The notes below the pieces were generated by a model. The model was not told where the DNA came from and searched no databases. It worked only from the letters and a program-made list of their open reading frames with translations. Shown piece by piece: positions 4,664 to 17,621 of a stretch of DNA of 21,160 nt (position 1 is its first letter; every line of letters starts with the position of its first letter). The stretch is from a virus: positions 1 through 21,160 of the IMG/VR virus record IMGVR_UViG_3300033233_000183. One strand, written 5' to 3'. Both the position numbers and the translations under genes were made by a program.

Positions 4664-4858
4664 TTAGGATTGGACCTGCTGGTTTCGCAGTTTATCTATG
4701 TACTCAAGACTTGCACAATGACCCTTATAACCAGGATAATATTCATTCACCATAGCAGGAATACCCATAGCAGTAATCGCACTATAACACTTCACCCAAA
4801 CTTCTTTGGTGTCGTGATTTACTACGTGTTCTAATTTCAATTTGTTAGTCTTTTTCAT
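4664..4858 (-). CDS. hypothetical protein, 64 residues
   Basis: I do not recognise this protein. It begins MKKTNKLKLEHVVNHDTKEV and contains VKCYSAITAMGIPAMVNEYYPGY; the centre is mildly hydrophobic but too short to call a membrane segment. The ATG at 4858 is preferred over a GTG at 4897 that would overlap the upstream gene more deeply. It overlaps the end of the 185-residue gene by 14 bases in another frame, so it is probably co-transcribed and translationally coupled. A strong terminator follows, ending this small unit. Coding support comes from strand, overlap and terminator placement rather than homology. Confidence 0.65.
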   Translation of the reverse strand: MKKTNKLKLEHVVNHDTKEVWVKCYSAITAMGIPAMVNEYYPGYKGHCASLEYIDKLRNQQVQS

Positions 4859-5402
4859 AAGTGAATGTTTTGTTTTTGACTTTTGTATCAAACTCACCAG
4901 TTCTTCCTGGTTTCATTTTTCCAACTCCAGCATTCTTACCTTTACCAGGCCAAGATGTTTTGGATGTTCCTTTCAGTGTAGCAGATCCTTTTGGTTTTCT
5001 TTGAATCAATACAGAATCTTGGTCGTCCTTGGATGAACCTTTTACATTATGCTTTTGCTTTAATCCACCTTCGGTTCCAAGTTTCTCAATCGTCTTCTTA
5101 AAGGTTTTCTTACCCATTTTACCAGAAGAAACTACATGAGATTTTTCACCCACTTTTTTCTCATCTGGAGTTCCTGGGTTTTCGGTATATCTTCCAGATA
5201 CTTTTGTTGGACCTGGAAGACCGGCACCTCTAATTCTCCTTTCGGTTCTTGAAGACCTTTCTTTGTTTTCTTTTTTTGATTTGTCACCTCTCTGCCCAGA
5301 GAGAATTGCCATCCCACCCTTTTCAGACTTACTCATTACGCGAGTAATAGAAGTCTCTTGGATAGAGTAGCATTCTACCACAAATTCGTTAAAAGTTTTC
5401 AT
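4845..5402 (-). CDS. putative internal head protein with capsid-targeting sequence, 185 residues
   Basis: The ATG at 5402 gives MKTFNEFVVECYSIQE. This matches the capsid-targeting sequence of the T4 internal proteins (MKTYQEFIAEA in IPI and IPIII) at M, K, T, E, F and the cleavage-site E, with conservative changes elsewhere. In T4 that peptide directs proteins into the prohead and is cut after E10 by gp21. The rest is basic: I count 43 Lys+Arg against 21 Asp+Glu, rich in Gly and Ser and apparently without hydrophobic core segments, similar in size to T4 IPIII (193 residues). An AATAAATA late-type promoter stands 21 bases before the ATG. A longer reading from a TTG at 5414 is rejected because the ATG start restores the targeting sequence. 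Inferred role: packaged with DNA and injected into the host. Its body is not one I can assign to a family. Confidence 0.8.
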   Translation of the reverse strand: MKTFNEFVVECYSIQETSITRVMSKSEKGGMAILSGQRGDKSKKENKERSSRTERRIRGAGLPGPTKVSGRYTENPGTPDEKKVGEKSHVVSSGKMGKKTFKKTIEKLGTEGGLKQKHNVKGSSKDDQDSVLIQRKPKGSATLKGTSKTSWPGKGKNAGVGKMKPGRTGEFDTKVKNKTFTYEKD

Positions 5403-5422
5403 TTTTATAAACAATTTTTAAT

Positions 5423-5430
5423 TATTTATT
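5423..5430 (-). promoter_or_regulatory. late-type promoter for the internal-protein gene
   Basis: AATAAATA on the minus strand, overlapping the stop codon of the CobT-like gene by one base and 21 bases before the next ATG. It is the only late-type octamer I found in the accessory island. Confidence 0.6.
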
Positions 5431-14405: not shown

Positions 14406-15806
14406 TCACATCAGGTTAGTAACGGAAACTCTTCTGTAGTAGCGGTTGCTATTAACAGTCAGAGTGCCTGAACCTTGAGTAGTACCCTGCGAGAATGGGT
14501 TCTCAACCATTCCGTAACGGGTCTTGAAGCCGATCTTAGGTTGGAAGGTGTTCTCACCAACGGCACGAACCATTTGGAGAGGAACATAAGGGCAGTAGAA
14601 GAGACCAGCGTCATAAGGTGAAGTACCCTTATATCCGATAACGTAATACTGAGTTGCAGCAACGTTTGCCGAATATGGGTCGATGTAGACTCTATACTTA
14701 CCGTTGATAACTCCAGCAAAAGTATTGCCGGTATCATCTACATTAAGATTTGCATTCAGAGCAGGAGTGTAATCAAGTACACCAGCCATGGTCAATGCTG
14801 AAGCAACGTCAGCAGAACACAGAATGATGTTACCCTTTCCTCTACGAGTTCTTTGTGCGATAGCGTTAGCATCGCGCTCGATTTGGAACAGAAGACCCTT
14901 AAACTTCTCAACTGACCAACGACCGTTGGAGTCAACGTCAAGGTTAAAAGTACCAGCAGTTTGGGTGTTTACTTGAGCACCAGTTTCAGCAACCTTATAA
15001 ATGGTTCTGATAACTTCGCGGTTGATTTCAGCAAGAATCTCAGTTGAGAGAATGTTTGCCAATTCTGCTTCAGCATTTAGACCGTGAATTGCCTTCAGGT
15101 CTTGTGCGAGTTCGAGCGAATACTCAGCTTTCAGAGCACGTGACTTTGCAGTAACGGTGACTTTCTCGATTGAGAATGCCATCTCGTTGAATGCTTGACC
15201 ACCAGGACCACCCAGATTCTCAGCATCGTCTGTTCTCATACCTTCGCCAACGCTGTAAGCAGCTTGTGTGGCGTTAGTAGAAGGATTCAGTAGACCGGGG
15301 TTAGAACCGCTCTGGCCAGTCGTACCGAGACCTACAGCAGCATTGACCATACCAGAGGTTACAGAACCCATAGCAGAGTTAGTAGTGCCAATACCTGAGA
15401 ATGCAGTTTCAACTTCGTTGAATAGTGCTTCGGTGCCAGACTGATTAACGTAGCGTGAACGCATTGCGAAAATCAGACCAGTTGGAGCGTTCATTGGTTG
15501 AACACCAGCCAGGTCATAAGCAACCAGATTAGGCATTGAACGTCTGATCAGCGAAATCAGAACGGGATCGAAACCGGCAACAGGGCCAGTACCAGATGCT
15601 CCACCACTAAAACCAGCATTAGCGCCAGTATTAGTATTGACAGTTGGAGCTTCTGAAAGAAATGCTCTTTCTTCACGAAGGAATCTTTCTTGGTTTTCTA
15701 ACAGGACAGCGGTGCAAGCTCTACGATGGGGATCTCTGATGTGATCCAGACCATTATGGTCTAAGAGTGGTGCCCACTTCTCCTGCAGATGTTCGGCGTT
15801 GAACAT
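14406..15806 (-). CDS. 23: major capsid protein (gp23)
   Basis: This 466-residue protein (T4 gp23 is 521) forms the hexamers of the head shell. Clear matches to T4 include SMPNLVAYDLAGVQPMNAPTG (T4 AIPNLIAFDICGVQPMNSPTG), NEMAFSIEKVTVTAKSRALKAEYSLELAQDL, NREVIRTIYK, GKYRVYIDPYS, and FQPKIGFKTRYGMVENPF. The precursor is expected to be cut by gp21: AFLSE followed by A53 aligns with the T4 site FLTE followed by A, so residues 1-52 would be removed. The region between about 100 and 200 is shorter and Gly/Ser/Asn-rich compared with T4, suggesting a reduced insertion domain. GAGGT lies ten bases before the ATG. Codons are GC-richer than in neighbours, as expected for a highly expressed gene. A strong terminator follows. 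Confidence 0.98.
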   Translation of the reverse strand: MFNAEHLQEKWAPLLDHNGLDHIRDPHRRACTAVLLENQERFLREERAFLSEAPTVNTNTGANAGFSGGASGTGPVAGFDPVLISLIRRSMPNLVAYDLAGVQPMNAPTGLIFAMRSRYVNQSGTEALFNEVETAFSGIGTTNSAMGSVTSGMVNAAVGLGTTGQSGSNPGLLNPSTNATQAAYSVGEGMRTDDAENLGGPGGQAFNEMAFSIEKVTVTAKSRALKAEYSLELAQDLKAIHGLNAEAELANILSTEILAEINREVIRTIYKVAETGAQVNTQTAGTFNLDVDSNGRWSVEKFKGLLFQIERDANAIAQRTRRGKGNIILCSADVASALTMAGVLDYTPALNANLNVDDTGNTFAGVINGKYRVYIDPYSANVAATQYYVIGYKGTSPYDAGLFYCPYVPLQMVRAVGENTFQPKIGFKTRYGMVENPFSQGTTQGSGTLTVNSNRYYRRVSVTNLM

Positions 15807-15855: not shown

Positions 15856-16920
15856 TCACTTTTGAAATGATTTCGAAAGCACATTAACATATGCATTCAT
15901 TGCATCAGAATAATCTACTCCTAATTGAGTTGATTCGTTAAGTGTTTCAGTCTCACTTCTATATGGAGCAGCTTGATGGAAGTATGATTCTTTCAATACT
16001 TCAAGCTTCTCCTTGTATGAATTTTCACTTTCAAACTCAACACTTTCGGCAAGTGAAGCGAGCTTCTCTTTCTGAGTAATAGTTAATCCCTCAGAAACAT
16101 CAAACAGGATTCCATCTGCAACCGACTCTGCGAGACGCTTGTTTAGGAAGATGTTTTTCTCAATCTGCTCGTTGAGTTTTGTCTCCATTTCGTCAAGTTT
16201 ATTTGTCATATTCTCGACAACATCATATTTATCATCAGGGATTGAAACATAATTTTCTTCAAAAAGTCCCTTGAGTCCTTCAAGGAACGATTCAGTAAGT
16301 TCCGACTTGAGACCTTTCTCAATAGACAGAACATTTTCGTTAAACCATTCATCAGCGACATACTCAAGATATGAATCTACTCTTTCGATTAGATCTTCCT
16401 TAAGTACTTCAACTTCTTCAATGAGTTTTACCTCATAATGTGCTTCAAATGCCTCTCTCATTTCAATAACTTTTGATTTGAGAGCAGCTTCAAAAATAGT
16501 TTTTGCTTTATCTTTAAAACCTTCGGAGAGCTCTTCGCCAACGAGAAGTGCATTTACATCATCTTCAATGTCAACGTCGTCATTGATTTCTGGAAGAGTA
16601 CCTTCTTCAAATACCTCTTCATCTTCACCATCTTCTTCGTACTCTTCAGTTTCAGAATCTTCTTCTTCAACTTCATCATACTCCTCTGCTACTTTTCTAG
16701 CAGCAACAAGAGAAACTTTCTTAAGACCGGCACCGGCATCTTTTAACTTTGCTGAATCATCATCAGGTCTGTAGTTTGATGGATCAGGTCCGCCCAAATC
16801 TTCATAACCAACACCAGCCATAGTCTGCATTTGATCGGCTGCTTTTGCCGATGCATTACCAGCAGACTTAGATTGTACAGTGCCTACTTCCATTTCTTGT
16901 AAATTTCTACCACGGGACAT
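15856..16920 (-). CDS. 22: prohead core scaffolding protein (gp22)
   Basis: This 354-residue protein sits directly before gp23 as gene 22 does in T4 and would form the core around which the capsid assembles, later being digested by gp21. It is highly acidic and largely helical. Residues about 75-125 are an almost unbroken Glu/Asp stretch, followed by long helices with coiled-coil character (about 145-300) typical of scaffolds. It is longer than T4 gp22 (269), mainly through the N-terminal 125 residues. Several L-x-E sites could be gp21 targets. A perfect late box TATAAATA and a GGAGAG ribosome site precede it. Confidence 0.9.
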   Translation of the reverse strand: MSRGRNLQEMEVGTVQSKSAGNASAKAADQMQTMAGVGYEDLGGPDPSNYRPDDDSAKLKDAGAGLKKVSLVAARKVAEEYDEVEEEDSETEEYEEDGEDEEVFEEGTLPEINDDVDIEDDVNALLVGEELSEGFKDKAKTIFEAALKSKVIEMREAFEAHYEVKLIEEVEVLKEDLIERVDSYLEYVADEWFNENVLSIEKGLKSELTESFLEGLKGLFEENYVSIPDDKYDVVENMTNKLDEMETKLNEQIEKNIFLNKRLAESVADGILFDVSEGLTITQKEKLASLAESVEFESENSYKEKLEVLKESYFHQAAPYRSETETLNESTQLGVDYSDAMNAYVNVLSKSFQK

Positions 16921-16967: not shown

Positions 16968-17621
16968 TTAAAGATTTGCAAGGAAATCATCAAACAGATT
17001 CAATTTCTGTTCGTCCAAGCATTTTTGATCAACTAATGTATTTATTCTTTTGTATGTCCTTTCTGCAAGTCTCTCGCGTAAAATACCATTGTCCCAGACC
17101 CAATCTTTTCCTTCCATAATACCTGATACAAAAGCATCAGGTGCTGAAGGATCAGCAACAATGTCAGCAGCAGTAGCAAGAGTAAAATCCTCTCCTACCA
17201 TACTATAACCTTCATTGCTTTGTTTAAGAGTACCGACTCCCCGAGAAGAAACTCCAAGTTTTACACCTTCACTTAAAAGTGAAGATGCAATTTTTCCCAT
17301 TGGAGTTGATTCAAGAATTTTTGCTTTTCCAATGTAATTGTTTCCCTCTTGACGAAGAGACACAATTTTATGAGAAACCCTATCAAGATTGACGGTAGGA
17401 CCATCAGGATGTCCGAGTTCTCCAAGAGCTCGTCCTTTAATAATAAAGTTTTCATTATATCGTCCAACCTCACGAGAGAGTACATTCATAGGATACATTC
17501 TGCCATTGCGATTGCAAATGTTTCCTTGAAGAAAAACTCCTTCAATGTATAAAGATTTTTTACCGTTGCGATTTTCAACGATAACTTCTACGTTTTCAAT
17601 TTCTTCTGTAATTAGTTTAAT
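16968..17621 (-). CDS. 21: prohead core protease (gp21), apparent AUU start
   Basis: This protein would cleave scaffold and capsid precursors (after x-x-E sites) during head maturation. The first ATG (17498) would remove conserved sequence: upstream codons read SLYIEGVFLQGNICNRNGRMYP, matching T4 LYIEGIFMQAEVVNRNKRLYP. The open frame continues to a TAA at about 17650 with no ATG, GTG or TTG. The best start is ATT at 17621, giving (I/M)KLITEEIENVEVIVENRNG, the N-terminus I remember for cyanophage gp21, with GGCGGA eight bases before. The late promoter at 17649-17656 excludes more upstream starts. Length 217 (T4: 212). Conserved family features are LGELGHPDGPTVNLDRVSH with the likely catalytic His, GVSSRGVGTL with the likely catalytic Ser, and AADIVADPSAPDAFV. 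Confidence 0.9.
   Translation of the reverse strand: MKLITEEIENVEVIVENRNGKKSLYIEGVFLQGNICNRNGRMYPMNVLSREVGRYNENFIIKGRALGELGHPDGPTVNLDRVSHKIVSLRQEGNNYIGKAKILESTPMGKIASSLLSEGVKLGVSSRGVGTLKQSNEGYSMVGEDFTLATAADIVADPSAPDAFVSGIMEGKDWVWDNGILRERLAERTYKRINTLVDQKCLDEQKLNLFDDFLANL

Follow-up and report, generated by a model that had tools for sequence, protein, structure and literature searches.

The internal proteins Ip1, Ip2 and Ip3 of phage T4 are all injected inhibitors of GmrSD restriction enzymes, so that injected anti-restriction cargo is already known (PMC12373910), and mutagenesis of the T4 capsid-targeting sequence (CTS) has assigned targeting to its positions 4 and 7 and processing to positions 8 and 10, an Asp at position 10 blocking processing but not targeting (review PMC9026906). 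The S-adenosylmethionine (SAM) lyase of phage T3 is documented to counteract restriction and BREX (summaries in PMC7877911 and PMC12255297), the loss of SAM disabling type I and type III restriction and BREX (PMC12255297), and the SAM-binding residues conserved in the lyase Svi3-3 comprise Gly56, Tyr58, Glu69 and Gln104, together with Glu105 (PMC7877911). In the cyanophage S-CREM2 a 'SAM hydrolase' (ORF6, also gp6) was identified in CsCl-purified virions from 19 unique peptides (coverage 26.3%), and its authors suggested in 2023 that it enters the host and protects from restriction (PMC10665884). Here we describe a gene in 21,160 nucleotides of viral DNA (IMG/VR record IMGVR_UViG_3300033233_000183, positions 1 to 21,160, the whole stretch being called the window) whose product joins the features of a T4 internal protein to those of a SAM lyase.

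Like T4 IPI, IPII and IPIII, the window protein, which begins with MKTFNEFVVECYSIQETSITR, combines an N-terminal MKT[YF]xxF[hydrophobic]xE with a basic mature protein, a late-type promoter, gp21 in the same genome and a probable injected anti-defence role. Unlike them, it carries a SAM lyase homologue instead of a small inhibitor protein and has a second, invariant cleavage-type Glu downstream, and the CTS-lyase unit lies inside larger proteins in some cyanophages. With the T3 enzyme (gene 0.3; PDB 8bb1, 7ock) it shares the family PF23780, the best fold match (Z 12.9) and the G-x-Y, Glu and Gln-acid residues, but the T3 lyase is made early after DNA entry, has no packaging tag and is only about 15% identical to it. 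Svi3-3 (PDB 6zm9, 6znb) shares the PII-like fold and the equivalents of its five SAM-binding residues, whereas no packaging tag is known for it and the fold score is weaker (Z 7.3). The closest described relative is S-CREM2 ORF6, 45.6% identical from residue 1 and beginning with the CTS MKDFDSFLEE, which differs in its length of 414 residues and its extra C-terminal region; in the available part of PMC10665884 its virion location is reported and no targeting or cleavage signal is described for it. The literature that we searched, with preprints outside it and subscription papers mostly outside it, yielded no account of the CTS-SAM lyase link, its cyanophage-wide conservation, the polyprotein arrangement or the tag as a predictor of virion enzymes, and an earlier description is possible. 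The gene and its parts are as follows, a slash marking a cleavage point and counts referring to the homologue set defined in the next section.

5423 to 5430, minus strand: late-promoter-type AATAAATA, read directly
4845 to 5402, minus strand: CTS-SAM lyase gene, precursor of 185 residues, ATG at 5402 (open reading frame; PF23780; phrog_12788, E 1.7e-20)
5373 to 5402, minus strand: CTS MKTFNEFVVE, residues 1-10, conserved at positions 4, 7 and 10
5355 to 5372, minus strand: spacer CYSIQE, residues 11-16, ending in the invariant Glu16; likely gp21 cut I-Q-E/T
4848 to 5354, minus strand: predicted mature SAM lyase, residues 17-185, basic, with a PII/ferredoxin-like alpha-beta fold (AlphaFold model, Foldseek and VIA)
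5187 to 5195, minus strand: G70-R71-Y72, equivalent of Svi3-3 Gly56-x-Tyr58, conserved in 189/189 (roles, PMC7877911)
5145 to 5147, minus strand: E86, proposed equivalent of the catalytic Svi3-3 Glu69 and T3 Glu68, conserved in 189/189
5016 to 5021, minus strand: Q128-D129, equivalent of Svi3-3 Gln104-Glu105 (Q in 189/189, D in 188/189)

Conservation of the tag and identity of the body

Searches of IMG/VR with three seeds returned 354, 283 and 349 relatives, from each of which 80 were kept, and the homologue set comprised 189 distinct complete proteins. In 188 of them the core of the tag stood at the N-terminus, counted from the annotated start or from one just downstream of it, and in the last, L031, it was internal. 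It was present in all 63 homologues of the set found mainly with seeds derived from the body, so that its conservation is not a consequence of having searched with the tag. The motif M[KR]x[FY]xxF[ILVM]xE, expected by composition at 5e-6 per N-terminus, occurs at no other open reading frame (ORF) start in the window. Position 4 is Phe or Tyr in 187/188 distinct homologues and position 7 in 188/188, in keeping with the aromatic residue at 4 and Phe at 7 of T4-type CTS internal proteins, while position 10 is Glu in 159/188 and Asp in 16/188. At the codon level, among 43 close relatives, positions 4, 7, 10 and 16 are fixed in amino acid and vary in codon, and positions 5, 9, 12 and 13 show 6, 10, 6 and 8 different residues. 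In these sequence comparisons, conservation of the tag falls on exactly the positions that T4 mutagenesis found important. Together with the mass spectrometry of S-CREM2 gp6, this supports the proposal of the first-pass annotation that this is an internal head protein with a T4-type CTS. Homologues retaining the body and lacking the motif, which that annotation had named as evidence to the contrary, were absent from the 189.

The other features that it had reported were largely confirmed. The charge counts were exact on recount (33 Lys and 10 Arg, 43 in all; 7 Asp and 14 Glu, 21 in all), the isoelectric point being 10.1, or 10.2 after residue 10. The late-type promoter is present, and of 178 distinct homologous loci 155 retain TAAATA within 70 nt upstream of the start, where shuffling predicts 25.7; the gene thus combines a small basic mature protein with a late-type promoter, both as in the T4 internal proteins. 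The range first given, 4845-5430, holds for the gene as far as 5402, its remainder taking in the promoter.

The body, which had looked unrelated to the T4 internal proteins, does have relatives, the assignment of residues 17-185 to the SAM lyase family and fold being well supported by profile and model. The Pfam family PF23780 (S-adenosylmethionine lyase) matched residues 33-183 of the window protein with E 2.2e-6 and 28.1 bits (cut-off 28) and all 42 diverse homologues scanned at E <= 0.01 (best 7.7e-22), the T3 SAM lyase itself giving E 5.7e-42. It was the fold search with the predicted model (AlphaFold, pTM 0.58), not the profile comparisons with PDB sequences and with T3, that settled the family: Foldseek placed the T3 lyase 8bb1 first (E 6.3e-4, prob 1.00), and the VIA-align Z values were 12.9 and 12.1 for T3 SAM lyase and 7.3 for Svi3-3, the first unrelated chain scoring 7.0. 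G70, Y72, E86 and Q128 are each conserved in all 189 homologues, and D129 in 188, with Glu once, whereas E81 is not invariant; from this conservation and the pattern E-x-S/T followed by a beta strand, we propose E86 and not E81 as the catalytic Glu. Cleavage of SAM by the window protein is inferred. No relatives turned up when bacterial genomes were scanned with the family alignment, and NCBIfam holds no model for the window family. Beyond the cyanophages, Alishewanella phage Slicko01 and Campylobacter phage CP220 carry PF23780 relatives, whose N-termini, although more divergent, also finish in E/SSL. The T3 gene 0.3 (L255:901-1359, NC_003298 T3p01) is labelled 'SAM-dependent methyltransferase' in RefSeq and in phrog_2226, yet the enzyme is a SAM lyase.

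Probable processing site, modular relatives and evidence from virions

Two sites of the form [hydrophobic]-x-E can be read from the sequence at and just after the end of the tag, V8-V9-E10/C11 and I14-Q15-E16/T17, and the final cut by gp21 is probably the second, with a cut at E10/C11 also possible. The second is favoured because E16 is invariant and E10 varies, and because similar sites, of the form [LIVM]-x-E/[AGST], are found in gp22 and gp23 of the same phage. The equivalent of E16 is Glu in 189/189 homologues, the P3 residue being Ile, Leu, Met or Val in 188/189 and Phe once, and P1' being Ser or Thr in 186. In particular, all 16 homologues with Asp10 retain it. In compact relatives (MKTYKEFMQE/SSLSR), Glu10 and the E16 equivalent are one and the same residue, while in the clade of the window they are separated by the six-residue spacer. 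Cleavage at E10 alone was set aside, since E10 is replaced in 29/188 homologues and the E16 equivalent never is. As the exact new N-terminus, the Cys11 first predicted is less certain than T17.

Several homologues are longer proteins. In L186 (435 residues), L190 (381) and L180 (280), the CTS is followed by at least one basic module, a junction [IL]-x-E/[TS]S and then the lyase, and in S-CREM2 (414 residues) and L239 (357) a C-terminal region follows the lyase. In S-SZBM1, S-WAM1, P-RSM6, P-TIM40, P-SSM4 and S-SSM5, the lyase forms the C-terminal portion of a longer protein, with a CTS-like segment lying internally, exactly at its start (ITYREFIAE/GNRT, KSFKEFLEE/GNRT, NKTWQEFLDE/GNRT, ESFSDFLNE/GNRT, MYYQDFIKLVE/GNPT and LSYKDFIDLCE/GNPT), which suggests that the tag and its Glu travel with the lyase. 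Large basic proteins of repeated modules, with [LIV]-x-E/[GTSL] joints and the lyase last, are encoded at L186:2182-3486, L190:2338-3480, L376:1381-3504 (S-SZBM1_194) and L382:1198-3507 (P-TIM40). By their sequences such proteins look like cargo polyproteins for gp21. As to gene context, in S-CREM2 and S-H34 (L081:4947-6001, L083:4949-6001) the lyase adjoins a DNA adenine methylase gene, with Cas9-like or hypothetical and kinase genes near, and in P-TIM68 a SAM decarboxylase lies near the lyase gene.

Association of the tag with virions was examined by translating all 219 S-CREM2 proteins and scoring their N-termini with a matrix built solely from the IMG/VR lyase homologues. The four highest scores belonged to gp154 (cytidylyltransferase), gp14 (kinase), gp6 (the lyase) and gp136, all of them virion proteins. 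All five S-CREM2 proteins starting with the form [FYL]xxFxxE were virion proteins (Fisher 6.5e-4; 2.7e-3 without gp6). A rank test of the tag score over all non-structural virion proteins of S-CREM2 was not significant (p 0.39), because the tag marks a minority of these proteins and only the top-scoring tail is informative. In S-SCSM1, for which GenBank holds virion labels, two proteins are tagged, ORF91 (NMNAT), labelled as virion, and ORF30, unlabelled and lying between two virion genes, and in this genome alone the tag did not predict the labels significantly (strict motif p 0.31). For both genomes combined, 6/7 tagged proteins are virion proteins (p 3e-4). Packaging of the CTS-lyase into the head is well supported, its presence in virions being shown for the S-CREM2 homologue, and in the phage of the window packaging and cleavage are predicted. 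Two further virion proteins carry similar segments elsewhere in their sequence: the Cas9-like nuclease gp12 of S-CREM2 (L085:7704-10313, minus strand), with the CTS-like RFASFMAEAA at about residues 18-27, and ORF93 of S-SCSM1 (L254:3626-3835), which ends with the tag-like RTFKEFLEYIE.

Proposed role and competing explanations

We consider it probable that the gene encodes a late, CTS-tagged SAM lyase that is processed by gp21, injected with the DNA and able to collapse host SAM before phage expression, thereby blunting SAM-dependent defences. The precursor, composed of the CTS (residues 1-10), a short spacer and the lyase, would be expressed late, and during prohead assembly F4 and F7 of the CTS would bind the scaffold core and carry the protein into the head. 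There gp21 would cut after [ILVM]-x-E, most likely at E16/T17, and the freed basic lyase would stay with the packaged DNA. On infection it would enter the cell with the DNA, trimerise and split SAM into methylthioadenosine and homoserine lactone, so that the host would run short of SAM ahead of all phage gene expression, and SAM-dependent defences (type I and III restriction, BREX and SAM-AMP signalling) would fail together with host methylation; loss of SAM would also lower the precursor of SAM-AMP. As regards feasibility only, T4 packs about 360 copies of each internal protein (PMC9026906) and Svi3-3 has a turnover of about 9.5 SAM per second (PMC7877911). With a similar copy number and rate one virion could remove about 3,000 SAM per second, and a pool assumed to be in the range of 1e5 molecules would be gone within about a minute. 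The suggestion of the first-pass annotation that an anti-defence protein is injected gains weight from the identity of the body, since the SAM lyase of T3 is known to counter restriction and BREX. T4 internal proteins are protein inhibitors of type IV restriction enzymes, and the T3 lyase acts only after DNA entry and expression; a pre-loaded SAM lyase, if true, would be active from the very start of infection, ahead of any cut by restriction enzymes. It would also turn S-CREM2 gp6 from an unexplained virion protein into a testable mechanism.

Several results weigh against this proposal. On the side of packaging, ORF30 of S-SCSM1 (L250:4215-4535) has no virion label although its tag is the strongest in that genome, and SSZBM1_194, whose C-terminus is the lyase, was absent from the 30 virion proteins detected in S-SZBM1, in a shallower proteome; moreover, the motif tests draw on few proteins and were run with several definitions of the motif. 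On the side of the enzyme, confidence in the model is moderate (pLDDT 64.6), profile-profile comparison against T3 by itself gave a weak result, and when the family profile was run against PDB sequences all matches were chance ones, with neither Svi3-3 nor the T3 SAM lyase among them. The equivalence of E86 rests on conservation and not on a solved structure, the profile comparison having aligned E81 instead.

The packaged lyase may serve host takeover or metabolism and not anti-defence, its depletion of SAM halting host methylation and polyamine or cofactor synthesis, or supplying methylthioadenosine and homoserine lactone. Although we regard this as unlikely, the co-packaged enzymes of S-CREM2 and S-SCSM1 have metabolic or regulatory functions (kinase, NMNAT/cytidylyltransferase) and the SAM decarboxylase of P-TIM68 would fit it, while the effects of the T3 lyase on restriction and BREX (PMC7877911, PMC12255297), and the DNA adenine methylase beside the lyase in S-CREM2 and S-H34, which fits a context of modification and restriction, argue for the anti-defence role.

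It is improbable that the packaged protein has a chiefly structural role, neutralising or compacting DNA or aiding core assembly as a basic internal protein, with the lyase fold kept as a relic. Its isoelectric point of 10.1 and the fact that T4 internal proteins are abundant basic core components (PMC9026906) speak for such a role. A relic, however, would lose its SAM-binding residues, which here are invariant in 189/189 save for one D-to-E change while other positions vary, and the other tagged cargos are enzymes (NMNAT/cytidylyltransferase, kinase). The DNA-compacting function raised as an alternative in the first-pass annotation becomes less likely for the same invariance.

We give very little credence to an ordinary intracellular late lyase that is not packaged, with an N-terminus kept for another reason and a homologue detected in virions by contamination. 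Abundant cell proteins can indeed accompany CsCl-purified preparations and the T3 lyase is an early intracellular enzyme, but the window gene has a late-type promoter, its N-terminus matches the T4 CTS determinants, the tag is associated with virion detection, and the 19 unique peptides of S-CREM2 gp6 exceed those of gp21 (4) and of the scaffold (7) (PMC10665884). Least probable of all is an injected anti-CRISPR enzyme acting on a SAM-derived signal such as SAM-AMP, for although the fold and the key Glu and Gln are common to SAM-AMP lyases as well and a phage SAM-AMP lyase (AcrIIIB4 candidate) has been described (PMC12255297), the best fold match is T3 SAM lyase and the strictly conserved T-loop Cys of SAM-AMP lyases was lacking in all 188 T-loops examined, which favours SAM as the substrate.

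The tag on other proteins and neighbouring genes

A DNA pattern for MKT[FY]xxF[IM]xE identified 97 distinct ORF starts in IMG/VR viral contigs, 96 of which have at most 30 open codons upstream, so that the tag is N-terminal. The 78 tagged proteins other than lyases included Pfam matches to cytidylyltransferase, zeta toxin, HicA toxin, HD, GNAT, DPBB, HNH and Cpn10, and their PHROGs matches include 'internal head protein' and 'internal virion protein'. Such a set is possibly a catalogue of injected effectors, ten residues and a cleavage site being a readable signal by which to find them among cyanophage 'hypothetical proteins'. More tentatively, and with the balance slightly against it, the CTS may serve cyanophages and other T4-like phages as a general cargo code, in which one 10-residue tag would send diverse enzymes (SAM lyase, NMNAT, kinase, Cas9-like nuclease, HicA- and zeta-toxin-like proteins, GNAT, HD, HNH) into the head, some as polyproteins cut by gp21 at [ILVM]-x-E/[STG] into several injected effectors, the SAM lyase being one widespread anti-defence module. 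Tagged ORFs are found in L256-L345, for example at L295:12007-12630, L301:2990-3670, L313:1226-1783, L314:2400-2801 and L273:4149-4529, and lytic transglycolase bodies are also among them.

Besides the lyase gene, the window holds the following genes.

4664 to 4858, minus strand: ORF of 64 residues overlapping the end of the lyase gene, downstream in the same operon (tblastn homologues)
14406 to 15806, minus strand: gp23 major capsid protein, propeptide site AFLSE/APT at E52 (sequence site)
15856 to 16920, minus strand: gp22 scaffold, whose core is expected to bind the CTS (phrog_237, E 4.7e-99)
16968 to 17621, minus strand: gp21 prohead protease, the predicted processing enzyme (phrog_207, E 1e-61; frame and DNA)

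The 64-residue ORF gave no Pfam match and belongs to no known family, and tblastn found a homologue of it directly 3' of the lyase in 100 related loci. The gp21 assignment agrees with the first-pass annotation, gp22 and gp23 being encoded in the window as well. The gp21 frame opens at ATT (17619-17621, minus strand) with no in-frame ATG at the conserved start (IKLITEEIENVEV), which points to a rare start codon or to an error in the sequence. In the first 100 residues of gp23, AFLSE/APT is the only [ILVM]xE[AGST] site.
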